A stretch of 64,000 nucleotides of DNA, from assembly GCF_009766085.1 (NCBI RefSeq), contig NZ_LMUF01000015.1, positions 62,001 through 126,000 on the forward strand. Direction: 5' to 3'. The first letter of the stretch is position 1; every line of letters starts with the position of its first letter. The DNA is from Burkholderia sp. S171. GTDB taxonomy: Bacteria; Pseudomonadota; Gammaproteobacteria; Burkholderiales; Burkholderiaceae. The translations under genes were made by a program, and so were the position numbers. This document shows positions 43,858 through 63,642 of the stretch, piece after piece. Below the pieces are notes generated by a model. That model did no database searches. It saw only the letters and a program-made list of their open reading frames with translations, and had not been told where the DNA came from.

Positions 43858-44688
43858 TCAGACGGCCACGAGGGAGGATGCGCGCTCGCCGGTAACGGTT
43901 GACTGCAAGTCGATGCGGCCGATCCGCAGCCGTGCGATCAACGCGTGTGTCAGCAGGACCGCCTGCTGCTCGGCGATAGCCGTCGCAGAGACTGGAGCGA
44001 CTGGAGCAAACGCCGGCGACGGGACCGACGCCGTGGCAAGCGTCAGCGCGACCAGGGCGCTGACATCCTGACGCGCGATGGCATCGAGTAATGGTTCGAT
44101 CGCGTCTTCTCCATGCGCCGTATGCGTTGCCTCGTTGGATTTCCGATCGTCACGCACCCGGTCTTTCGCGCGATGCACCATTTGCCGGCAATGCGCGGCG
44201 CTCCGGTTAAGGATCTTCGCGATACTCGCGTAGTCCGCTTCGAACGCCTCGCGCAGCAGGAAAGCTGCCCGTTCCTCCGCCGACAGCCGGTCGAGCACGA
44301 GGCGCATTCCATAGAACAGATCCGATGCCTGTTCCGCGAGTGTCTGGGCCGACGGAGCGTGATCGATGGAATCGAAACCGTCGAGATTGTCGAGATTGTT
44401 GATCCCGCCCGGCAACGGCGCCTCATGTTTCAGGCGCCGCAAGCGGTCGATGGCCGTCCGTTTTGCGACCGTCGCGAGCCATGCTGCGGGTGTGTCCAGC
44501 GCATTGTGTCCCGCGTCACCCGCCGTGCGCTGATGCAGATGCCACTTCACGAACGTGTCCTGGACGACGTCCTCGGCGTCCGCGCGCACGCCGAGAATCC
44601 GGTAAGCCAGCGAAAACAGCCGCGCGCGCGACGCCTCGAAGAGGGCGAGTTGCGCCGTGTCGCGATCGATATCCGTATCACCAGTCAT
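43858..44688 (-). CDS. SigJ/ECF41-like RNA polymerase sigma factor
   Basis: 276-residue ECF sigma factor. Sigma-2 covers about residues 15-85 (AYRILGVRADAEDVVQDTFVKW, RTAIDRLR). Sigma-4 covers about 125-180 (LSAEERAAFLLREAFEADYASIAKIL, CRQMVHRAKDRV) and looks like ECF41/SigJ. These factors carry a fused SnoaL-like C-terminal regulator in place of an anti-sigma factor. Here the C-terminal part (190-276) starts like it (IEPLLDAIARQD) but lacks the DGGGK and NPDKL motifs. The ATG at 44688 has GAGGGG upstream. An ECF41-type promoter lies at 44732-44758. Confidence 0.82.
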   Translation of the reverse strand: MTGDTDIDRDTAQLALFEASRARLFSLAYRILGVRADAEDVVQDTFVKWHLHQRTAGDAGHNALDTPAAWLATVAKRTAIDRLRRLKHEAPLPGGINNLDNLDGFDSIDHAPSAQTLAEQASDLFYGMRLVLDRLSAEERAAFLLREAFEADYASIAKILNRSAAHCRQMVHRAKDRVRDDRKSNEATHTAHGEDAIEPLLDAIARQDVSALVALTLATASVPSPAFAPVAPVSATAIAEQQAVLLTHALIARLRIGRIDLQSTVTGERASSLVAV

Positions 44689-44731
44689 GGGGGTTCCCCT
44701 CATTAATCGTGCTTTTGCCCTGTATCGGCCT

Positions 44732-44758
44732 GACGGCTGGCGCCACGTGAATGTGACA
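44732..44758 (-). promoter_or_regulatory. ECF41-type promoter of the sigma factor gene
   Basis: On the minus strand, TGTCACA (44758-44752), 16 bases, then CGTC (44735-44732). This is an exact match to the reported ECF41 promoter consensus TGTCACA-N16-CGTC. The -10 element ends 43 bp before the sigma factor start codon, which suggests autoregulation. Confidence 0.7.
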
Positions 44759-44789
44759 GCCACCGGCAAAAATATATCGCGTGAGCGCG

Positions 44790-44816
44790 TGTCACGCACG
44801 GATGGCGTTGTGCGTC
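44790..44816 (+). promoter_or_regulatory. ECF41-type promoter of the second clpP gene
   Basis: On the plus strand, TGTCACG (44790-44796), 16 bases, then CGTC (44813-44816). It differs from the ECF41 consensus only in the last base of the -35 element. It lies 51 bp before the clpP start and faces away from the sigma factor promoter, which has the same geometry. Confidence 0.68.
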
Positions 44817-44867
44817 ATATCGGCTGAAGGCATCCACAGTGAGCAAAAACCAAGGAACCGCAACGCC

Positions 44868-45470
44868 ATGAATCCCCACAGCCTTGGCCTCGTGCCGACT
44901 GTCATTGAACACTCCGGACGCGGCGAACGCGCTTACGACGTCTATTCGCGGCTGCTGCGCGAACGCATCATTTTCCTGGTGGGGCCGGTGACGGACCAGA
45001 CGGCGAGCCTGATCGTCGCGCAACTGCTGTTTCTCGAAGCGGACAACCCCGAGAAGGACATCGCGCTGTACATCAACTCGCCGGGCGGGTCGGTCTACGA
45101 CGGCATGGCGATCTTCGACACCATGCAGTTCATCCGGCCGGACGTGTCCACGCTTTGCACCGGATTCGCCGCGAGCATGGGCACATTCCTGCTCACCGCG
45201 GGCGCGAAGGGCAAGCGTTTTGCGCTACCCAACGCGCGCATCATGATTCACCAGCCTTCGGGCGGGTCGCAGGGCACCGCGGCCGATATCGCCATCCAGG
45301 CCAAAGAGGTGCTGTATTCGCGCGGACGCTTGAACGAGATCATGGCGGAGCGCACGGGGAAGAGCGTGGAGCAGATTGCGGCGGACACCGACCGCGATAA
45401 TTTCATGTCGGCGGATCAGGCGCGGGATTACGGCTTGATCGATGAAGTGCTGACTCAGCGCGCTGCATGA
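44868..45470 (+). CDS. ATP-dependent Clp protease proteolytic subunit, second paralogue
   Basis: 200-residue ClpP serine protease subunit with the full triad: Ser103 (GFAASMGTF), His128 (MIHQPSGG) and Asp177 (TDRDNFMS). It lacks the N-terminal extension of the tig-linked ClpP in this window and differs in the substrate-proximal loop ([10 protein letters not shown]). The open frame starts at 44781, but the ATG at 44868 follows AAGGAA and gives the ClpP N terminus. No Clp ATPase lies next to it. A strong terminator follows. Confidence 0.92.
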
Positions 45471-45711: not shown

Positions 45712-46635
45712 TTAGCCATCTCTGAATTCAACCGCGTATCTGTCGGGGTGCTGATAGGCAACTTTGAATTCGGGATTGAAGCCGTTAGCCAAGATAAATT
45801 CTTTGTGTCGTTCACGAACCTCCGGTTCCATCCTCATTCCGAACAAGACTGACCTCAACGAATCTTTTTCAAAATTAAGGATTTTTGAAGATCCCAGCTC
45901 AACCGGATGTTTATGGCTTTTATAATGTTGTAACTCGAGCCGCTTAATGAGATTCTTTGGGAGACCTATGGATTTTGTCGCGATTGTCGCAATCGTCTTG
46001 ATGATAGCCGGATCGGGATTGGTAGTGCGCCACTCGAAAACCGTAGGATTTGTAGATCGGTATTCCCTCTCATAACTCCAGTCAACTGATTTTTGATAAA
46101 GTGCAATGATCGCAAGCTCGTCCTCGGTGTGTGCCCAGAAACGGACCTTCCTGTAGTTCGTTGCGTATACCATTTCGGTAACTGCGGGAAGTCCTGTCTG
46201 TCCCCAATCAAATTCAAGACAAAGACCTTTGTGGTTCGCTGCGTAATGTGCCCAGAGAAGTAAGTTATGCTTTTCAGCCGACAATGCCAGGACGCCGTAG
46301 TAGTCCATTAAATCCCTGTAATATCTTGCATTGTCCCAATACGTTCCCGTAATAGTTCTATCATACATTTCGTCGACAGTTCTTTTAGCTTCCTCGTAAC
46401 GGAGGTCTACCGGTATGTCCCTACCCCGGCTGCGATGTTGGTAGCCAAACGAACGAAACACGTAGTCAATTGCTTCCTCTTTGGACGCGGAATAATCGAA
46501 GTTAAGCATGCCATCGAAAGGGTCATTGAAGGTTGATGGCTTTGCGTAGAAAAGGCCTGCCTCACTAAAAATTTTCGCCGTATTGCTTGTGCCGATATTA
46601 TTGAAGTCAATCGGTCCGCGATATTTATATAGCAT
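45712..46635 (-). CDS. DUF2971 family protein
   Basis: 307-residue soluble protein. DUF2971 features are MLYKYRG at the start, KPSTFNDPFDG near residue 33, the ALSAEKHNLLLWAHYAANHKGLCLEFD block near 117-145 and SYEREYRS around 190. Function is not established; genes of this family are common in genomic islands. A 33-codon frame (45618-45719) overlaps its end with an ATG 5 nt inside and may be chance. Sequence is AT-rich compared with the host. It is the leftmost island gene. Confidence 0.82.
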   Translation of the reverse strand: MLYKYRGPIDFNNIGTSNTAKIFSEAGLFYAKPSTFNDPFDGMLNFDYSASKEEAIDYVFRSFGYQHRSRGRDIPVDLRYEEAKRTVDEMYDRTITGTYWDNARYYRDLMDYYGVLALSAEKHNLLLWAHYAANHKGLCLEFDWGQTGLPAVTEMVYATNYRKVRFWAHTEDELAIIALYQKSVDWSYEREYRSTNPTVFEWRTTNPDPAIIKTIATIATKSIGLPKNLIKRLELQHYKSHKHPVELGSSKILNFEKDSLRSVLFGMRMEPEVRERHKEFILANGFNPEFKVAYQHPDRYAVEFRDG

Positions 46636-46951
46636 AGTGTTTTACGTTTCTCTTTGTGGAAGTTCCAAAGTATTCTACACTTGCTAGAATCGTTATGATC
46701 TGCGTGAACCGCCAAGTTGCAGACGAAAATACTCAGCGGATACGAAAATCAACACCGCTTCACAGTTAGGTACGTTTTTCTGCCGACATAAGTTGCGGAG
46801 CTTCTACAGCTAACAAAGTGCGGCGACCCTCTCCTGACCAGACACGCGCAACTATCTCCCGGTATATAATCACTCTCGGAACTGACGAGGAAGGGCTTTG
46901 CCGCTGTATTTTAATATTGTATTTTGGCGACTATCGGAAAAATGGAATTTT
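46636..46951. other. AT-rich spacer between DUF2971 and AbiJ-like genes
   Basis: About 315 bp with no open frame worth calling. It should hold the promoter of the leftward DUF2971 gene; TAAAACA/TATATA-like sequences occur but none is convincing. No hairpin terminator is obvious. Confidence 0.4.
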
Positions 46952-47764
46952 CTAACCTTTTGCCAGTGTCTTCAAATAATTGACAAAGGACGTGCATACA
47001 AGCAGGAAATACTTTGCGTCGGCCGCTGTGAGGTTTGGCTCGTCCATTAAGGCGTGCCTAATCCCCTGTGCATCGCTCGTGTAGGCGTACAAAAATGTAT
47101 AGCTTTTCTGCAATGCACCATGCAGTTTCCCCGATTTCTCCAAAATTGCTAATGCCTCTTTTAAGTCTGCCTTTTCCTTTCCGCTCACGATCTTTGCTGC
47201 AGCTTCTACAGCGGATATAGACTCCTTGATACAGTTTCTGTAATCAGGATTGTCCCTGTTAGAAAGCATCGCCAGTGCGACAGAGATATGCCTGGTTGCT
47301 CCGGCAAAGCTATCATTGTTCGCTGTAAGAGCAGCTTCGAGCGCGCTAATTTCAAGCGCGTCCGTTATTTGGACAAACTGTCCATCAACTATACGATAGG
47401 CTGCTAGCTCTTGCTCCAAAACGCGACTTACAAGCCATGCTAGTTTTTCGCCGGCGTACCTAAACCGCATGCAGAATTCGAGGAAGTCGTAAACGAAATG
47501 CCACTCGTCCTTGAAGAATTGCTCCCTAATTCGATCCCAAGCGCGCCTGTAGGAAGTCCCGCCGTATCCACCCACAGAGGGTATGGAGTCGATAGGTTCC
47601 TTGAAAAAGTCACGCCAAAGCACCGCCAAGAATTCATATTCCGAGGTTGGATACTCCCACGCGTCAAAAGCATTCCATAGGGAGTTGCGAAGGGGCGCAG
47701 GCATACCGTCCGGCTTAATGCTTTCGGGTATGGGAGTAAGCCCGTTTCGTTGACTGAATCGCAT
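46952..47764 (-). CDS. AbiJ-like protein (AbiJ_NTD4-type), candidate abortive-infection factor
   Basis: 270-residue soluble protein. The N terminus MRFSQRNGLTPIPESIKPDG, then MPAPLRNSLWNAFDAWE, fits the AbiJ N-terminal domain 4 pattern. The C-terminal helical part has SISAVEAAAKIVSGK, KLHGALQKSYTFLYAYTSD, GIRHALMDEP and ADAKYFLLVCTSFVNYL, shared by many AbiJ-like proteins. AbiJ was described as a phage-abortive-infection protein; defence activity here is inferred. AT-rich, as an acquired gene would be. It lies alone, divergent from nothing and about 130 bp from the GhoS-like gene. Confidence 0.75.
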   Translation of the reverse strand: MRFSQRNGLTPIPESIKPDGMPAPLRNSLWNAFDAWEYPTSEYEFLAVLWRDFFKEPIDSIPSVGGYGGTSYRRAWDRIREQFFKDEWHFVYDFLEFCMRFRYAGEKLAWLVSRVLEQELAAYRIVDGQFVQITDALEISALEAALTANNDSFAGATRHISVALAMLSNRDNPDYRNCIKESISAVEAAAKIVSGKEKADLKEALAILEKSGKLHGALQKSYTFLYAYTSDAQGIRHALMDEPNLTAADAKYFLLVCTSFVNYLKTLAKG

Positions 47765-47895
47765 ATTGCAGGTGTTCGTAGGAAAAACTTTGGTTAGTGT
47801 CCGGAATGATACCGCGCCTTAACGGTCGATAATCCTCGACTTCTCCGTTTCAAAAGCACCACCAGGGCACGAGGCCCCGGCGGCGACACGTTCAC

Positions 47896-48189
47896 CTAAG
47901 CAATTTCGAGCGCATAGCTAGCCCAATCAACGAATTGGAGTACGTACACTCTGCACTGCAAACCGGCACGCAGTCCCGCTTGCGCGGCTCTCGTGGCGCG
48001 GTCTCGAACTTGCTGCGTCGCTTCCGCGCTTACGTGGACATACTCGGCTGGAGGCAAGTGATATCGACTACCGTTTGCTGCGACGATGGCGGTAGCAAAC
48101 CCTTGTGCTCGCATTCGGGCATGCAGTCGTTCATAGTCGTTGCCATCTGCACGATGAAGCAGTTCAATGCGTACATTAAACATGGACAT
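47896..48189 (-). CDS. Small DUF2622/GhoS-fold-like protein
   Basis: 97-residue protein, MSMFNVRIELLHRADGNDYERLHARMRAQGF at the start, then a beta hairpin with YHLPPAEYV and a helix (TQQVRDRATRAAQAG). This alternating pattern resembles the DUF2622 family, which includes the antitoxin endoribonuclease GhoS of type V toxin-antitoxin systems. No GhoT-like toxin is seen beside it. Similar genes occur alone on mobile elements, so antitoxin activity is only a possibility. Confidence 0.5.
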   Translation of the reverse strand: MSMFNVRIELLHRADGNDYERLHARMRAQGFATAIVAANGSRYHLPPAEYVHVSAEATQQVRDRATRAAQAGLRAGLQCRVYVLQFVDWASYALEIA

Positions 48190-48541
48190 AGTTGTTACCC
48201 TATGAAGCGTCCAGGCGCGTTGACACTACCTTTTGGATAGTTATACTTGCGCCCGTACAGTTGGAAACCGGCCGCTTTTCACTTGGCAGAGAGGGCAGCC
48301 GGAGATGCAAATAGAGGCTGCACCTTTTACGGTGTGGCCTTTTTCATTGCAGGTAAACATTACCATCAATTCAATGGTCTAACGAAGCCGGAACACAAAA
48401 TCTGGTGTGCGAAAACGTTTAGAGTGCTACAGGTTGTATCCATGCATACTCTGTCGATCTTGGGACATGGTTTTACCGAATAGGGATCGCGTCCTGCGTA
48501 GTGTGTGTGATAGCATGATGCAATACGCTTAGGAGCTATCT
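48190..48541. other. Spacer with a terminator-like hairpin between the left and right halves of the island
   Basis: The hairpin at 48316-48344 (GGCTGCACC/GGTGTGGCC, loop TTTTAC) is followed by TTTTTC and would stop rightward transcription. A 78-codon plus frame (48247-48483) runs through it and is not supported. The right end holds the promoter and TAGGAG ribosome site of the next gene. Confidence 0.5.
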
Positions 48542-48931
48542 GTGAAATACGATCCCGATTCCAATGTCCGTAGCCAGCGAGAGAACATGCAGGCGTTCCA
48601 ACTAAGGCTCCCAAAGGAGACTATTAAGGACCTGCAAATACTTCGCGTGTTCGCTGGCGTCAAGGTTTCCGAGGAGCTTAGGGACCTAATCGTAGGATAC
48701 GTCGAGACTAAGCGTCCGCTAATTAAGCAGGCTGCAGCAGATTCACTCGGCGCTCCCACCGAGCTAACTACGGAAGAGCAGGTTCTTGCTGCGAACGCAT
48801 TAGCTAAGCGTGGGGAAGTCGATCTGTATCACGTGGTGCCTGTGCTTAACATGACGAAAAACGCGGATGGGACGGTAACGCGGAGCGAGCCAGCGGACAA
48901 GACACCAAGGCCTGCAGCCAAGCGGAAATGA
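48542..48931 (+). CDS. Ribbon-helix-helix-like small protein
   Basis: 129-residue protein starting at a GTG with TAGGAG upstream. The segment QAFQLRLPKETIKDLQILRVFAGVKVSEELRDLIVGYV (about residues 17-54) has the strand-helix-helix pattern of RHH DNA-binding proteins. A charged tail (KTPRPAAKRK) ends it. It may regulate phage-derived genes to its right. I do not recognise a named family. Confidence 0.55.
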   Translation: MKYDPDSNVRSQRENMQAFQLRLPKETIKDLQILRVFAGVKVSEELRDLIVGYVETKRPLIKQAAADSLGAPTELTTEEQVLAANALAKRGEVDLYHVVPVLNMTKNADGTVTRSEPADKTPRPAAKRK

Positions 48932-49336
48932 AACAGTACGCCAAAGAATGAAAATACAGCTTGCGTAGTGGTTTTAAGCGCAGTACATTCTGTCCAGTGG
49001 TAAGAAAGGGCGGTAGATGCAGAAGTCTCCGCCCTTTAAATGGTGTCTACGTAGTGGTTTTAAAACACTATCGTAGCGAAACAGCCTCAGGTAGTCGGAC
49101 ACAGCGCTCCGGTCTACAGTAGCAAAGCTCTTTAACAACCCAGTGCGTAGGCCTCCAGCAGCAACGGACCCGCCTACCGGCCTTAATCAGGTCGTGACGT
49201 AGTGAGCGGTAGCGACGGCGGAGGATAAGGCCTCCTCGTTGCATTCCGGATAGCAGCTACGAAAGGATTACCAAGGCGCATTCCTACGAGTGTTCCTTGG
49301 TAGCGCATGGAGCAACAACTAACTAGGAAATGAAAA
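48932..49336. other. Non-coding island segment with a direct repeat and a hairpin
   Basis: The 14-bp sequence CGTAGTGGTTTTAA occurs at 48964-48977 and 49050-49063. Between them lies a 9-bp perfect stem (AAAGGGCGG 49005-49013 with CCGCCCTTT 49029-49037). The rest, up to the AGGAAATG before the next gene, contains short repeats of TGGTAGCG-type sequence but no gene. This may be a phage regulatory or promoter region. Confidence 0.5.
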
Positions 49337-49636
49337 ATGAAACGAGTTCTGCATGTAACGCTTGCCCGTAACGATAACAAGCCTGATAACAAAATTCTGG
49401 CTATGTTCGATTCGATCAAGGCTCACGGATTCCATATTACTAAGGCCGGTGCTTACATAGACGGCACGTTCTCCGCTACCTGCGAATGGCGGTGCATCGC
49501 TCCTAATCGTACCCGTGCATCTCTGCCTCCCGTCATCCTGCGTAACCGTGCTGAGGCTCTAGCTGCGTTGGCTATCGACCTTGGGCAGCACGCGGAGCGG
49601 CTAAAGTTTGGCTCAGTAGAATTGATGGCGGCATGA
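49337..49636 (+). CDS. Hypothetical phage-type small protein
   Basis: 99-residue protein, unrecognised. It starts MKRVLHVTLARNDNKPDNKILAMFDSIKAHGFHITKAG and has no signal peptide or membrane segment. An AGGAAATG lies at the correct distance upstream. Codon use resembles the tape measure gene to its right rather than the host. Confidence 0.5.
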   Translation: MKRVLHVTLARNDNKPDNKILAMFDSIKAHGFHITKAGAYIDGTFSATCEWRCIAPNRTRASLPPVILRNRAEALAALAIDLGQHAERLKFGSVELMAA

Positions 49637-49737
49637 GCAGCTTTAAATTTAACCAGTCTACCTTTAGGACTACCTATTTATGACCCCCTGGACATACGGG
49701 AGCTATCCCCGCGTCTCCATACTCGGAGGCACGTGTA

Positions 49738-49920
49738 CTGAGCACTAAAGTTAGTCCGGACTTGCACAAGCGGATTCGGACTTTCGCAGTAGAAGTAGAC
49801 GCCACGGTATCCGCCGTGATTAAAACCGCTGTATCGCAGTACCTTACCTCACAGGGGCACAAAATGAAGATTGGCAGAATCACGAGTAAGCTCACGCACG
49901 CTAGCCTTGAGGCTCACTGA
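49738..49920 (+). CDS. Possible ribbon-helix-helix small ORF without a standard start codon
   Basis: A plus-strand frame open from 49684 to a TGA at 49918-49920 reads LSTKVSPDLHKRIRTFAVEV, then a helix ending AVIKTAVSQYL. This is close to the RHH pattern of ParD/Arc-like antitoxins and repressors. No ATG or GTG precedes the RHH part; CTG (49738) or TTG (49762) would be needed, or a frameshift from the 22-codon ATG frame at 49680. The tape measure frame begins at the next base. Confidence 0.35.
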   Translation: MSTKVSPDLHKRIRTFAVEVDATVSAVIKTAVSQYLTSQGHKMKIGRITSKLTHASLEAH

Positions 49921-52707
49921 TTGAGCACGTCGAACAACAACAGCACTATCGTAGTTTCGGTAGATGCTACTGGGTTTGAAGCTGGCGTTAATAAGATCAA
50001 AGCAGGGTCGGCTACTGTTAGCGCGGCACAAGCGCAAATGGCCCAGCGTGTCCAGCTTGTAGACGCAGCGATGAAGGAAGCTGCTGCGAACGGGTTTGAG
50101 TTGAACGCACGGGCAGCTAATAAGCTTGCTGCGGAATATCAACGGTTAGCGGCAACGGTAGGCAAAACCCAAGCGGAAATCCTTGCCCAGCGTGCAGCAG
50201 CTACCGGGGTCTCCAGCACGTTCGCTAGCATGCAGGCGCAGATTGCCTCAGCATCCACTGAGACTCACGGTTTTAGCCTCGCCACGGGCGCAGCACGGCG
50301 GGAGCTTGCGGTGCTAGCTCACGAGGCCGGTACGGGCAACTGGTCCCGGTTTGGTGGCTCGCTAGGCGTGCTCGCGGAGCGTACAGGCGCTATCAACTTG
50401 CTTTTCAGTGCCACGGGTGCATCCCTGATCGCTGCTGCGGCTGGCATCGCTGCAGTCATTTACGAGATTGCCAAGGGTGCGGAATCATTCAACGCGCTCA
50501 CCAAGGCATCCGGCGCTACCAACGATTACATCGGGATGACTAGCGGACAGCTTAAACAGATGGCTGTGGATTTAGCTGGCATGGGCGGTAGCATCACTGA
50601 CGCCTCGGCCACGCTCACCGCACTTATCAGTTCCGGCAGAGTATCCGGAGACACGCTGTTAGAAGCGGGACGGGCTGCGCAGGCCTTCGCACAGCAAACG
50701 GGCTTGGCTGCGGATAAAGCTGCTGAGGCTATGATCGCGTTCGCAGCGAACCCATCTAAAGCGCTGCAGGAATTGCAGGAGCATTACCACGAGTTTAGTG
50801 CTGCCCAGGTCAATGTGATCGAAGGGTACATTAAAGAGGGTAATGTAGCTGCTGCCACCGCTGCGGCTTACGCGGACATCGCTGCGCATCATAAGGAGAT
50901 GACTTCCGCAGTGCTCGCAGATATGGGCTTGATTGTAGGCTCGTATGAGGGATGGAAGATCAAACTTGAGTCCGTTGCTAACTGGCTTGGGAATATCGGC
51001 CGTGCGAGTACGCAGGCTGAGAATTACGCCAGCGCAGTAGCTGCTGCTGCGAAGGCACAGGAAAATTATAATCAAGCTGCGATGATGCCATTCGGTAACA
51101 CGGCATCGGCGAAGGCGGGGCTTGATGCAGCAAATGCACAGCTTGCCGTTCAGAAGAAACTACAGGATGCGGCTACGGCTGCAGCAGCAGCGGATAAGAA
51201 ACGTGCAGCAGGCGGGGATGCTCAGGTTAGGCTCAATAGCTACCTTAACGACACTACGGGCGCAGGGCCTGCGGCTGAGCAAAAGGGCAAGCTCGACAAG
51301 GAAGCCCAAAAGTTTGCGGAGGATACGAAGGATGTCGATACTGCATCTGCTGGCTATCAAGCTGCGCTTAAGCTGCACTATGAACGAGTCGCTGAGATCA
51401 ACGCACAGTATGCGAAAAAGACGCGCGTCAAGTCTCCCAACGAGGACGGCATCAATGCTGCGATAAAAGCCCTCAATGCACAGACCGATCAACTCAAGGC
51501 CGTCTATCAACAGCAGAACGATGCAGCTAAGGCATCCTACGCCACGGGTGCGATTGATGCACAAACGTTCATTGCGCTGCAGCTTCAATATCAGGAGCAG
51601 GAGTTAGCTGGTGAAGCAGCCATCGCGCAGAAGCAAGCGGACATTGCTAAGGGTAAGAAGCAAACTGTAGCCATGACGGAATATCTCAATACCGTAAAGA
51701 AGATTTATGGTGAGATGGACTCTGCAGCTTCTAAGGCCGCTGAGGGAATTATTGCAGCGAACCAGAAGCAGGCCGATGCTATTGCTAAGTTTTCGACTGA
51801 GCAGAATAGCAAGACTAAAACGCAGCAGCAGGGCTACGACGACTTCAACGCAACTCAAGGCATGACTTCCGATGATGCAGCTAAAGCTAACGCCAAGCTC
51901 GCTATTGTCCGCGATTACTACAAAACGCTGGAAAATCTTGAGGCCAATCATAACGCTAATCAAATTACCCTTGGTGTGTATGACTCGGATAAGCAGGCAG
52001 CAGCTACGGCCTATACGGATCAGCTTCAGCAGTTGCAGCAACAGCAGGATAAGCAGCTTGCCGTGCAAAATGATTATTACACGCAAGTCAAAAATGCAAT
52101 GACCGCTTCCACGGGTAACGCGCAGACCAACGCGCAGCTTATGGGGTCTGCGTTTAGCTCTGCTTACTCTACGATGTCCTCGCAGCTTGAAACATTTATC
52201 ACTACGGGTAAAGGTAGCTGGGCGAGCTTCACGGAATCCATCATTGCGGACTTCGCCAAGATTGCACTTAAGGCAGCGGAACAGCAGATATTCACATCGG
52301 CTATTTCCATGTTCTCAGGTGGTGGTGCGGTGCATGCTGCTACGGGTGGTGCAATCACTGGTGCAGGCAGCGGCACAAGCGACTCAATCCCCGCGATGCT
52401 TTCTAACGGCGAGTACGTTATCAATGCAGCTTCTACTAAGAAATACGGAAGCCTGCTGGACTCAATAAATAGCGGGACCATGAGCCACTACGCTACGGGC
52501 GGTGCTGTGGGTTCTGTATCGCCAAGCTCTAGCAGCGGATCGGGCAGCAACATCTCACTATCGCTCGGTGCTGGTAACCAGGGCTTAACTATGGCTGATC
52601 TTCAGGCAATCGCTCCGCATATACAGACACTCGTAGATAAACGTATGGCTCAAAAAATGGGTGGACAGGGGGGCTATAGCGACATGATTCGACAAGGGAA
52701 AATCTAA
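49921..52707 (+). CDS. Phage tail tape measure protein (lambda/TP901 type)
   Basis: 928-residue tail-length protein. The N-terminal region is coiled and Ala-rich. A hydrophobic stretch (about residues 158-184, LLFSATGASLIAAAAGIAAVIYEIA) would insert in the host membrane. Long Ala/Gln/Lys coiled coils follow. The C terminus carries the conserved tape measure tail FATGG-like repeats: GGAITGAGSGTSDSIPAMLS and NGEYVINAAS. The start is a TTG with GAGG upstream. Length is normal, so the gene looks intact, although no other tail assembly genes precede it. Confidence 0.88.
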   Translation: MSTSNNNSTIVVSVDATGFEAGVNKIKAGSATVSAAQAQMAQRVQLVDAAMKEAAANGFELNARAANKLAAEYQRLAATVGKTQAEILAQRAAATGVSSTFASMQAQIASASTETHGFSLATGAARRELAVLAHEAGTGNWSRFGGSLGVLAERTGAINLLFSATGASLIAAAAGIAAVIYEIAKGAESFNALTKASGATNDYIGMTSGQLKQMAVDLAGMGGSITDASATLTALISSGRVSGDTLLEAGRAAQAFAQQTGLAADKAAEAMIAFAANPSKALQELQEHYHEFSAAQVNVIEGYIKEGNVAAATAAAYADIAAHHKEMTSAVLADMGLIVGSYEGWKIKLESVANWLGNIGRASTQAENYASAVAAAAKAQENYNQAAMMPFGNTASAKAGLDAANAQLAVQKKLQDAATAAAAADKKRAAGGDAQVRLNSYLNDTTGAGPAAEQKGKLDKEAQKFAEDTKDVDTASAGYQAALKLHYERVAEINAQYAKKTRVKSPNEDGINAAIKALNAQTDQLKAVYQQQNDAAKASYATGAIDAQTFIALQLQYQEQELAGEAAIAQKQADIAKGKKQTVAMTEYLNTVKKIYGEMDSAASKAAEGIIAANQKQADAIAKFSTEQNSKTKTQQQGYDDFNATQGMTSDDAAKANAKLAIVRDYYKTLENLEANHNANQITLGVYDSDKQAAATAYTDQLQQLQQQQDKQLAVQNDYYTQVKNAMTASTGNAQTNAQLMGSAFSSAYSTMSSQLETFITTGKGSWASFTESIIADFAKIALKAAEQQIFTSAISMFSGGGAVHAATGGAITGAGSGTSDSIPAMLSNGEYVINAASTKKYGSLLDSINSGTMSHYATGGAVGSVSPSSSSGSGSNISLSLGAGNQGLTMADLQAIAPHIQTLVDKRMAQKMGGQGGYSDMIRQGKI

Positions 52708-53012
52708 TGGGTGCTGGTCTCCAATGCTGGGACAGTAGTGGTAATTTGACAGTAGACATTACTAGTAGGCTCGCCCGAGTCGCGGGTTCCATACCCATAG
52801 ACCCTACGCTGCCCACTCGTTCTATAGTAATTCCCTCTGGCGGTTCTGCGTTCTACAACTTCCAGCCTACCTTCGTTTGGGGGTTCATCAATATGGATGT
52901 ATCCCGGCCTATTTTCACTCTTACAGGTAATACCCTGTCGTGGGCTTGGTCCGTTGGCGCTGGAACAAACAACAAACAAATTACCGGGACTTTGTTCTAC
53001 GGTATTTACTAG
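52707..53012 (+). CDS. Phage tail-associated small protein, paralogue 1
   Basis: 101-residue beta-rich protein. It starts MGAGLQCWDSSGNLTVDITSRL and has YNFQPTFVWGFINMDVSRP near the middle. Its ATG overlaps the tape measure stop by one base. Proteins with this GLxxWDxSGN start are found among tail genes of lambdoid phages; the exact role is not known. A diverged copy follows directly. Confidence 0.65.
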   Translation: MGAGLQCWDSSGNLTVDITSRLARVAGSIPIDPTLPTRSIVIPSGGSAFYNFQPTFVWGFINMDVSRPIFTLTGNTLSWAWSVGAGTNNKQITGTLFYGIY

Positions 53013-53055
53013 TGAGGGATATAGCTATGAACTACTCAAATATGGGACGGGTCTA

Positions 53056-53370
53056 GTGTCTACATATGGCCTCCGTGTATGGAGTGCATCAGGTAATTTA
53101 ATCTGTGATGTCTCGTCTAGGTTAGGTCGCTTCGTCGGGTCTTACACGATAGATACCACACAGGCTAGCGGGTCACTAACGGATGCTGGCCTCCTGCATG
53201 GAGATGTCTGGTATCAGTTCCAGCCCACGCAAATTTGGGGGTTCATTAACATGGACGTTAGTAGACCGGTATTCGCGGTATCCGGCGATACGATTTCGTG
53301 GGCATACTCTGCAGCAAACGGAACTAACAATATGCGAATTCCAGGGACCGTGTTCTACGGCGTTAAGTAG
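53056..53370 (+). CDS. Phage tail-associated small protein, paralogue 2
   Basis: About 104 residues, starting at a GTG (VSTYGLRVWSASGNLICDVS) whose first base is the last base of an in-phase-shifted TAG, which would couple it to a short upstream frame. It shares WGFINMDVSRP and the TNN..I.GT.FYG ending with paralogue 1, so the pair arose by tandem duplication. The same frame is open upstream to 52897, but that part overlaps paralogue 1. Confidence 0.6.
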   Translation: MSTYGLRVWSASGNLICDVSSRLGRFVGSYTIDTTQASGSLTDAGLLHGDVWYQFQPTQIWGFINMDVSRPVFAVSGDTISWAYSAANGTNNMRIPGTVFYGVK

Positions 53371-53540
53371 GATTTATCTTAGGCTGCTCGCCGCCGATCA
53401 CTGAGCATGCCGATAGCAGTATCCGATCATGTAAGCCTGTTCTCCGCTGATCCCCGAACCTGCTGATAGCAATACCGATCACGCTGTAGCCGTGGAATTC
53501 TCCTCGTCCAGCAAAACATTACATAGGAATACTTATAACT

Positions 53541-53830
53541 ATGGCATCAACTATCATTCGCAAGGCTATCGTCAATGCAATTTTCAACTGGTCAGACGAC
53601 ATCGGTTTGAAGCTTCCTCAAGAGGCGGCTGCTTACGCTACCAAGCGCTTTGGATCAACGTCAGAGATCACTAAGGCGCTTGTTAATCCTGTCGGGGTGG
53701 GTACTCTCACGGACGGGCACAGTGCATTGGTAAACGAAACGCTGGTACGTGACGAGTTTGTACAGGCTGTGTTTTCCGGGTCGATCCTTGGCAAGCTGCA
53801 AGGTCTCATTGAAGTGCCTGCACTTACCCG
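53541..53830 (+). pseudogene. 5' fragment of a phage capsid-like gene, broken at the integrase junction
   Basis: From the ATG at 53541 about 97 codons read as a phage-like protein (TKALVNPVGVGTLTDGHSAL, LGKLQGLIEVPALTRI), similar in style to the N-terminal arm region of HK97-type major capsid proteins. After about 53830 the frame runs out of phase over integrase sequence and stops at 53960. I read this as the retained 5' end of a gene joined to a truncated integrase by deletion. The capsid assignment is weak. Confidence 0.4.
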
Positions 53831-53890
53831 AATAAAAAGGGAGCACGACCCGAAAAGCTGCGTATTGCGGCATTCCTGCGTAACTTCCCG

Positions 53891-54649
53891 TTGCTGGCTG
53901 ATAAGAAACTTGCAGATGTTAAGACGCCTGATATCGCAGCTTGGCGAGACGCGCGATTAGCTGGCTTCTACGGCCCTGACGGGCAGAGCGTGGCTCGCGT
54001 GTCCGCTGCATCCGTTCTACGGGATATCGCTTGGCTCAGCCATGCCTTTACAGTAGCGAAAAACGAATGGCATTGGATCGCGCACAAGCCCTTGGACGGC
54101 TTCAAACTGCCTCCGGCACCTGTTCCGCGAGACCGGCGCGTGCTGCCTTGTGAGGTCCGCTTAATCGTCCGTAGGCTTGGCTACGTGACTGGCGTAGCTC
54201 CGCAGACAAAGCAGCAAGCTGTAGCGTTAGCGTTCCTTGTCGGCCTGCGGTCTGGAATGCGAGCAGGGGAGATTCTGAGCCTGGGCAGGGCTAACCTAGA
54301 CTTGAACAAGCGTATAGCGACGGTGGCGCACAAGACCCAGCACTTAACGGGGAGGCCACGGATTGTCCCGCTCACGAGGAAGTCCGCACGGCTGCTCCGA
54401 CCGGTAGCGCACAAGGAAAAGTGTTTCGAGGTGTCGTCTGCGTCGCTGGACGCGCTTTTTAGAAAGGCGCGGGACCAAATGCTTATCAAGGGGCTGCACT
54501 TCCATGATTCACGGGCAGAGGCACTGACGCGGCTTTCCCGGAAGGTAGACGTTATGACGCTGGCTAAGATCAGCGGTCACAAGGATTTGTCCATCCTGCA
54601 GAACACGTACTACCGGGAGTCGGCGGAGGACATTGCAGCGCGGATTTAA
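53891..54649 (+). pseudogene. N-terminally truncated tyrosine recombinase (phage integrase)
   Basis: The integrase frame is open from 53813 and reads GARPEKLRIAAFLRNFP before the first usable start (TTG 53891), so its own N terminus and start are missing. From the TTG, 252 residues include the catalytic Arg124 (SGMRAGEI), His205-x-x-Arg208 (HDSR), His230 (ISGHKDLS) and Tyr240 (LQNTYY). The catalytic domain is therefore whole but the arm-binding domain is cut. It ends about 170 bp before the tRNA-Leu attachment site, the usual place for an island integrase. It may be expressed only through frameshifting from the frame at 53541. Confidence 0.8.
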
Positions 54650-54770
54650 CCGTGTGCAATGGCGTGTGCAGAGTGTGAGCACTTAGCAGTGCGAGGATCG
54701 ACACACAGCGCATATCGATGCACTGAGGCAGTAGCTTGGAAGCCTTGTCCAGCATGGGATTGAGACTGAA

Positions 54771-54802
54771 AAGCCCGTGCCTGTTGACTTAGGCACGGGC
54801 TT
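54771..54802 (-). terminator. Terminator of tRNA-Leu, located inside the island
   Basis: On the minus strand AAGCCCGTGCCT, an 8-nt loop and AGGCACGGGCTT form a perfect 12-bp stem followed by TTTTC. It lies 15 nt past the tRNA 3' end, on the island side of the attachment site, so the incoming element supplied the present terminator. Confidence 0.8.
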
Positions 54803-54816
54803 ATGCAGGGTGCTGT

Positions 54817-54837
54817 TTGGTGCGTGAGGTCGGACTC
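54817..54837 (+). repeat. Right attachment site (attR) repeat of the island
   Basis: 21 bp identical to the left copy at 45555-45575. It overlaps the 3' end of tRNA-Leu, so insertion keeps the tRNA intact. Confidence 0.92.
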
Positions 54838-54904
54838 GAACCGACACGACATTGCTGCCGTCAGGACCTAAACCTGGTGCGTCTACCAATTTCGCCACTC
54901 ACGC
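54818..54904 (-). tRNA. tRNA-Leu (anticodon UAG)
   Basis: An 87-nt tRNA with encoded CCA. The acceptor stem is GCGTGAG/CTCACGC, the T-arm GTCGGTTCGAGTCCGAC, the D-loop contains GGTAGACGC and a long variable arm marks a class II tRNA. The anticodon loop TTTAGGT gives UAG. It is the integration site of the island to its left. Confidence 0.95.
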
Positions 54905-62988: not shown

Positions 62989-63642
62989 ATGACCTTTCGC
63001 GCTCAATTACTGGACACGCTCGCGTCGAACGCGCCGCACGATTTCGAAACCAAAGCGCTCGGTCTGGTGCCCATGGTTGTGGAAACGAGCGGCCGCGGCG
63101 AACGTGCCTATGACATCTATTCGCGCCTGTTGAAAGAGCGTCTGGTGTTCCTGGTCGGCGAAGTGAACGACCAGTCGGCCAACCTGGTGGTCGCGCAGTT
63201 GCTGTTCCTGGAAAGCGAAAACCCCGACAAGGACATCAGCCTGTACATCAACAGCCCGGGTGGCTCGGTGTCGGCGGGCATGGCCATTTACGACACCATG
63301 CAGTTCGTGAAGCCGGATGTCGCCACGTTGTGCATGGGACTGGCCGCAAGCATGGGCGCTTTCCTGCTGGCAGCGGGCGCCAAGGGCAAGCGCGTTGCAT
63401 TGCCCAACTCACGCGTCATGATTCACCAGCCGCTGGGCGGCGCGCGCGGGCAGGCGTCGGACATCGAAATTCAGGCACGGGAAATCCTGTACCTGAAAGA
63501 ACGTCTGAACCAGTTGCTCTCGCACCATACGGGTCAACCGATGGACCGTCTTACGCGCGACACCGACCGAGACAATTTCATGTCCGGCGACGACGCGCAG
63601 GCGTACGGTATCGTCGATCAGGTTCTTCACAAGCGTCCCTGA
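62989..63642 (+). CDS. clpP: ATP-dependent Clp protease proteolytic subunit (housekeeping)
   Basis: 217-residue ClpP with propeptide-like N terminus ([20 protein letters not shown]). The triad is Ser121 (GLAASMGAF), His146 (MIHQPLGG) and Asp195. The ATG at 62989 has AAGGAAA upstream; an upstream frame to 62863 is not used. It precedes clpX, so this is the ClpXP protease subunit. A second ClpP without the N-terminal extension lies at 44868-45470. Confidence 0.96.

Follow-up and report, generated by a model that had tools for sequence, protein, structure and literature searches.

We analyzed a 64,000-nucleotide stretch of the genome of Burkholderia sp. S171 (contig NZ_LMUF01000015.1, positions 62,001 to 126,000; hereafter the window), in which a gene for an extracytoplasmic function (ECF) sigma factor lies back to back with the gene for a second ClpP protease (ClpP2). 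The spacer between the two genes carries two outward-pointing copies of the motif reported for promoters of ECF41 sigma factors, and almost all relatives with the same gene pair keep both. On these grounds it is highly probable that the copies are back-to-back promoters from which a dedicated, ECF41-derived sigma factor drives both itself and ClpP2. The features concerned are as follows, in positions of the window.

43858..44688, minus strand: ECF41-derived sigma factor gene (276 residues; sigma2 at residues 16-87, sigma4 at residues 130-177, shortened C-terminal extension at residues 178-276)
44696..44701, minus strand: likely ribosome-binding site of the sigma gene, GAGGGG, recognized by eye
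44732..44758, minus strand: predicted sigma-gene promoter (-35 TGTCAC at 44753-44758, -10 CGTC at 44732-44735, 17 base pairs [bp] apart), kept in relatives
44768..44777, no strand: A-tract AAAAATATAT, conserved, between both -35 boxes; proposed shared upstream promoter (UP) element
44790..44816, plus strand: predicted clpP promoter (-35 TGTCAC at 44790-44795, -10 CGTC at 44813-44816, 17 bp apart); relatives keep [T/C]GTCAC
44852..44857, plus strand: likely ribosome-binding site of clpP, AAGGAA, recognized by eye
44868..45470, plus strand: gene of the second ClpP, ClpP2 (200 residues; conserved Ser103/His128/Asp177)
62989..63642, plus strand: gene of the ordinary ClpP (ClpP1), which follows tig; it shares 67% identity with ClpP2 and is given as context, outside the circuit

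The sigma-gene element reads TGTCACATTCACGTGGCGCCAGCCGTC (44758-44732, minus strand) and the clpP element reads TGTCACGCACGGATGGCGTTGTGCGTC (44790-44816, plus strand). Both match TGTCAC-N17-CGTC exactly, which is the same element as the 7-mer TGTCACA or TGTCACG followed by N16, and they point outwards from the shared spacer, one on each strand. From the end of CGTC it is 43 bp to the ATG of the ECF gene (44688) and 51 bp to that of clpP (44868), exactly the positions and geometry that an earlier note on this DNA had claimed. Only these two TGTCAC-N17-CGTC sites occur in the whole window, compared with a mean of 0.17 in 100 shuffles, none of which reached two. A simple scan of the spacer detected no sigma-70 promoter. 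A terminator-like hairpin (44798-44778, minus strand), which may be coincidence, overlaps the clpP -35 box and is followed by the A-tract.

The conservation of the motifs was assessed at 138 loci that had been found through the protein and not through the motif, namely 16 of the genus, 20 of 80 named loci, and 102 further matches in the family. The other 60 named loci, which have 31 to 43% identity and are mostly from actinobacteria, were left out of the motif counts; all 80 were checked for ClpP, which lies within the fetched flanks of 4. Removal of three duplicates (L044, L051, and L058) left 135 distinct loci, with clpP divergent next door in 79 (linked) and not in 56 (unlinked). The earlier note had held that its reading would fall if the two motifs did not persist in relatives that share this gene pair. 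They did persist: both are exact in 73 of the 79 linked loci, 2 of which (L024 and L170) are decayed, that is, in 73 of the remaining 77. The spacing between -35 and -10 was 17 bp in all 146 motifs of these 73 loci (16 to 18 bp were allowed). Dinucleotide shuffles of the 77 undecayed spacers yielded both motifs in 0 of 15,400 sequences versus 73 of the 77 real spacers. The two motifs are thus tied to the gene pair by observation, and they probably mark the transcription start sites of both genes.

Across the family, 84 of 398 sampled genomes, from five genera, have an ECF sigma gene and a second clpP in divergent orientation, undecayed as far as checked; this count takes in nine pairs found by pattern alone, which are outside the 77 spacers. 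A profile of the sigma factor matched 107 of the 398 genomes at an E value of 1e-45. The ClpP2 profile matched 78 of 368 family genomes at 1e-112, the weakest match being 1.4e-118, and the sigma gene adjoins clpP2 in 75 of these 78. Of 87 genomes with the pair or its remains, 12 fall outside the result for the 368-genome sample (3 decayed and 9 presumably not drawn). Within Caballeronia, the sigma protein was detected in 16 of 58 genomes at 1e-40 and a close ClpP2 in 15 of 58 at 1e-102; all 15 also have the sigma protein, and the remaining one of the 16, G050, has both genes in decay. The profile search adds G043, which has a pair of the Paraburkholderia type. Both promoters are kept in all 15 undecayed Caballeronia spacers (L025 and L026 were shifted by the aligner), the first base of the -35 box on the clpP side being T or C; in the wider set, C stands there in 31 of 75. 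Three loci are in decay: sigma gene and clpP2 are both broken in G050 (L024); G009 (L254) has both motifs left, with the sigma gene absent and clpP2 matching only residues 2 to 120 near a contig end; and in G273 (L170) clpP2 matches only from residue 89, with no motif pair found.

Phylogenetic analysis placed ClpP2 in one clade (81 rows) apart from 29 ordinary ClpPs with support of 100/99, and the linked sigma factors likewise in one clade (77 rows; Shimodaira-Hasegawa-like approximate likelihood ratio test, 99) in a quick tree of the sigma2-sigma4 core that gave long-branch warnings. Thus, the sigma factor and ClpP2 appear to have been inherited together. No third conserved partner gene was found in the flanks, which hold transglutaminases in Caballeronia as against an EAL protein and TetR in Paraburkholderia. 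On plasmids, matches to the Paraburkholderia sigma factor were found in 271 records, each at less than 60% identity.

The two motifs were also searched for as a unit, with the pattern GACG-N17-GTGACA-N(15-45)-YGTCAC-N17-CGTC. This divergent pair matched 72 of the 398 family genomes, the reversed control being zero throughout the list, and in 70 of the 72 it lies between an ECF gene and clpP. The exceptions are G200, with a canonical ECF41 gene and no clpP, and G009, a reduced genome with no ECF gene. Beyond the family, the class sample of 369 genomes had the pair only once, in the window's own genome (0 of the 368 others). The order sample gave 4 of 300 genomes: three of the nine family members that it includes, and G1024, in which the pair adjoins a canonical ECF41 gene and an open reading frame (ORF) that by eye resembles a carboxymuconolactone decarboxylase. 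The divergent pair is far beyond chance, and its layout is not exclusive to clpP, as G200 and G1024 demonstrate.

The gap between the -35 boxes was 20 bp in 36 of the 73 loci, 31 bp in 15, and 42 bp in 1, with a range of 18 to 136 bp. These three lengths differ by 11-bp steps, about one helical turn; of the 15 gaps of 31 bp, 12 are from Caballeronia and 3 (L154, L156, and L181) from two other genera. Since the boxes form an inverted repeat, GTGACA...TGTCAC, with a preferred gap, they might instead be the operator of a dimeric transcription factor and not promoters at all. We consider this extremely unlikely: the gap varies widely, whereas the 17 bp to CGTC are invariant in 73 loci, and CGTC is the reported -10 of ECF41 promoters (PMC3426412).

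The spacers carry a further element that was part of no search. We aligned 26 spacers that are less than 80% identical and have the usual 20-bp gap; the -35 and -10 columns are fixed by this selection and hence are no evidence, and among the other columns the first five A residues of the A-tract are 96 to 100% conserved, the next-best free column reaching 88%. A run of at least seven A or T within 25 bp upstream of the sigma-gene -35 box was present in 66 of 73 linked promoters versus 0 of 40 unlinked ones. At the 20-bp gap, the tract lies 3 to 11 bp upstream of the clpP -35 box and 10 to 18 bp upstream of the sigma-gene -35 box; the corresponding distances in the window are 13 to 22 and 10 to 19 bp. 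Judged by the positions that we take to be usual for UP elements, the tract is probably one UP element serving both promoters. The linked sigma-gene promoters differ also in the bases flanking the core: AA follows TGTCAC in 1 of 73 linked versus 36 of 40 unlinked promoters, and the base after CGTC is A in 60 of 73 versus T in 38 of 40. As far as sequence can define it, the linked promoters constitute a subtype of ECF41 promoters, with an A-tract between the -35 boxes.

What happens to the motifs when the sigma gene is missing can be seen in three genomes, G069, G089, and G105, all of genus g13 (loci L287, L288, and L289), which have ClpP2 without it. In the 5.6 kb fetched of each, neither the sigma gene nor any GTCAC-N(15-19)-CGTC was found, so that the loss of the sigma gene goes along with that of both motifs. 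In G089 and G105, clpP2 directly adjoins a gene that by eye resembles the Paraburkholderia EAL gene located beyond the sigma gene; clpP2 and the EAL-like gene are about 1.3 kb apart in G069. The three losses are probably one event and count once. The three loci share, again by eye, a stretch ending ACTATCTTG upstream of clpP2, which could be part of a replacement promoter; a simple scan upstream of clpP2 in L288 detected no sigma-70 promoter. That a sigma factor serves both itself and the adjoining ClpP, as the earlier note had proposed, is strongly supported by the conserved paired motifs and by their joint disappearance here. A different ECF41-type sigma factor could in principle drive both promoters, with the neighboring sigma gene merely one of its targets, and the -35/-10 core is indeed common to other ECF41 promoters (PMC3426412). 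Such an arrangement is very unlikely, as neither motif exists where the sigma gene is absent, the linked sigma-gene promoters have their own bases after TGTCAC and CGTC, and in the sigma4 helix, Cys-Arg-Gln is preceded by His in 45 of 79 linked versus 0 of 56 unlinked proteins.

In the window's sigma factor, sigma2 and sigma4 are present (PF04542, 4.4e-12; PF08281, 7.7e-10), and among proteins of solved structure the closest in sequence is SigJ (5xe7; E value, 4.6e-31); the best NCBIfam matches, SigJ with 134 bits (cutoff, 271) and SigX4 with 132 bits (cutoff, 323), are below their cutoffs. The SnoaL-like domain of about 100 residues that is a feature of ECF41 was not found, no SnoaL match to the window protein being listed up to an E value of 1. 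We searched for DGGGK and NPDKL, which we take to be the names of motifs in the ECF41 extension, with small residue classes; they occur in 0 of 79 linked loci, two of them decayed, versus 56 of 56 unlinked ones. WLPEP, between sigma2 and sigma4, is absent from the window protein and occurs in 28 of 81 linked rows versus 55 of 57 unlinked rows; it is described as an ECF41 hallmark together with a large C-terminal extension that has three motifs (PMC3426412). The extension of the Paraburkholderia type is homologous to SnoaL (hhalign E value, 2e-10 over 137 columns; best of 20 column shuffles, 0.043), and the Caballeronia extension (14 tails, hhalign) matches SnoaL over 32 to 46 columns at its start only. 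An AlphaFold2 model of the window protein from 21 sequences (mean predicted local distance difference test [pLDDT], 71.7; predicted template modeling score, 0.46) is confident for sigma2, sigma4, and two following helices (residues 192 to 218), and has pLDDT values below 50 for residues 221 to 276 and the linker 93 to 109, suggesting that the tail 221 to 276 is disordered. The assignment to ECF41 made in the earlier note thus stands in part: the protein is closest to ECF41 and has TGTCACA-N16-CGTC on its own promoter (44758-44732), and it is without DGGGK, NPDKL, WLPEP, and a SnoaL match. By its sequence, it is an ECF41-derived sigma factor and not a textbook ECF41.

The gene on the other side encodes, as had been proposed, a second ClpP (PF00574, 2.1e-84; TIGR00493, 325.4 bits with a cutoff of 308.6), and the ordinary ClpP1 lies farther downstream in the window. 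Ser103, His128, and Asp177, which we presume to be catalytic from the positions in E. coli ClpP, are invariant in 17 diverse ClpP2 rows, so ClpP2 appears to be catalytically complete. Thirteen positions separate the 81 ClpP2 rows from 23 ordinary ClpPs of the family, including 98 and 100 (close to the catalytic Ser), 77 and 78, and 131, 135, and 137 (just after the catalytic His). No ATPase gene was found among the ORFs beside the pair in the window, L045, L051, and L052 (with Pfam for the neighbors in the window and L045); ClpP2 would accordingly use ClpX or ClpA. A genome from another family of the order also has a second ClpP (G818:C1:4161279-4161860), 71% identical to ClpP1.

Several observations weigh against the proposal that this sigma factor drives itself and ClpP2. 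Promoter activity and its dependence on the sigma factor are predictions from the DNA sequence. The genome-wide scan for TGTCAC-N17-CGTC that the earlier note had suggested found the single motif no more often than the reversed control in the genome of the window (10 sites each), a background level that chance can explain. Among the eight sites other than the two in the spacer, five lie within ORFs of at least 100 residues with no such ORF starting downstream, one lies within an ORF but also precedes two overlapping ORFs, one precedes a 131-residue ORF, and one is neither within nor upstream of an ORF. Summed over ten genomes (the window's own and nine relatives), TGTCACR-N16-CGTC gave 115 sites versus 49 for the reversed control, an excess that possibly reflects either more targets or an effect of composition, and ClpP2 may not be the sole target. 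The divergent pairs of G200 and G1024 sit at canonical ECF41 genes without clpP; 4 of the 77 spacers have the motifs in their usual places but with a one-base change in a -35 box; the three g13 genomes keep ClpP2, so that the sigma factor is not indispensable to it; and the loci share ancestry, so that the counts overstate the independent evidence. In favor of the proposal, when the 27-mers of the ten genomes were compared by eye, the sigma-gene site was the only TGTCACR-N16-CGTC site seen in all ten. The back-to-back genes with their matching promoters suggest that turning on itself and one protease is the main job of the sigma factor. Some of the other sites recur in up to five genomes, and at least one is inside an ORF (L005).

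Taken together, the proposed circuit would work as follows. A signal would raise the amount of active sigma factor; RNA polymerase with this factor would read both GTCAC-N17-CGTC promoters, with the A-tract acting as the UP element of both; the sigma factor would thereby amplify itself by positive autoregulation; and the ClpP2 produced would join the ordinary ClpX or ClpA of the cell and change its pool of Clp proteases. As the motifs linked to autoinhibition have been lost, something else must exert control, and proteolysis is an attractive guess for the replacement. In an extension of this circuit that we consider possible but doubtful, the sigma factor, free of SnoaL autoinhibition, is held in check through its C-terminal tail by the very Clp protease that it induces. 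The loss of DGGGK and NPDKL from all linked loci, the hollowed-out SnoaL domain in Caballeronia, and the tail modeled as disordered are consistent with this. Besides, the C-terminal part of SnoaL reportedly keeps ECF41 factors in a closed state via the sigma2-sigma4 linker (PMC9023288), and there is a precedent in AntA, an ECF sigma factor that ClpXP is reported to degrade by way of an Ala-Ala at the C terminus (PMC7142297). Ala is the final residue of 60 of 79 linked versus 20 of 56 unlinked proteins, raw counts that are uncorrected for relatedness and base composition. In contrast, Ala-Ala is missing from the end of most tails, the last residues of the window protein are LVAV, and Ala endings are common in one unlinked ECF41 clade as well, so that the C-terminal Ala is a suggestive lead as a degron signal and not evidence. 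Rather unlikely, in our estimation, is a complete, self-contained pulse generator, in which the SnoaL inhibitor has been given up, a Clp complex with the induced ClpP2 destroys the sigma factor and other targets and so ends the response, and the Caballeronia protein represents a naturally always-competent form.

The direct neighbors of the sigma gene in the window are clpP and a transglutaminase gene. The ClpP1 gene lies behind tig, 17.5 kb downstream of clpP2, compared with about 8 kb in the relatives G028, G032, and G033. Between clpP2 and the tig-clpP region, the window has a phage-like island (45712-54904) that contains DUF2971, an AbiJ_NTD4 domain protein, a tape-measure protein, an integrase, and a tRNA-Leu (54818-54904).

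Among known systems, the window's sigma factor most resembles the ECF41 factors Ecf41Bli, Ecf41Rsp, and SigJ: among solved proteins it is nearest to SigJ, and it shares the TGTCACA-N16-CGTC core and the divergent layout. ECF41 genes are reported often to carry a TGTCACA-N16-CGTC promoter; at 55 of 373 ECF41 loci, the sigma gene and its redox-enzyme gene diverge, in many cases with a motif facing each of them. Apart from the sigma gene itself, one type of redox-enzyme gene was the only detectable target (Wecke 2012, PMC3426412). Unlike these factors, the linked ones have no DGGGK or NPDKL, and their SnoaL domain is either motif-less (Paraburkholderia type) or eroded (Caballeronia); unlike ECF41 promoters, theirs have an A-tract and different bases flanking -35 and -10. 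A whole lineage would have exchanged the redox-enzyme target of ECF41 for a protease core and retained the new target while five genera diverged. The truncations Ecf41Bli(204) and Ecf41Rsp(206) are reported to be about 20-fold and 120-fold more active than the full-length factors (PMC3426412). The window protein similarly retains sigma2 and sigma4 along with the beginning of the extension; those truncations are laboratory-made, whereas the Caballeronia protein appears, from sequence and model, to be a natural counterpart. Natural truncations of the ECF41 regulatory domain would allow a direct test of how this domain works.

AntA of Streptomyces (ECF282) is likewise an ECF factor without an anti-sigma factor, is tied to ClpXP, and has closely spaced divergent target promoters (PMC7142297). 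It differs in that the Clp involved is the ordinary protease and has not been described as a target, that an Ala-Ala degron is present in 67 of 71 orthologues, and that it belongs to a different ECF group. ECF115 has Clp proteases nearby that are predicted to degrade its extension, its model factor being from Bacillus, and ECF294 (Herbaspirillum) has a SnoaL-like extension (PMC8999054). In the open literature available on ECF41 with Clp, or on ClpP with sigma factors in Burkholderia, Paraburkholderia, and Caballeronia, we found no description of the ECF41-ClpP pair, and the clade may already bear a group name in the ECF classification of Casas-Pastor 2021. Extra ClpP copies beside the ordinary one are known elsewhere, P. 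xenovorans being reported to have two clpP copies, and no dedicated sigma factor is described for them in the available part of that report (PMC12117332). The pair described here would, by contrast, provide a regulator for the second ClpP in a large group of Burkholderiaceae, including many Paraburkholderia, Caballeronia, and related bacteria.
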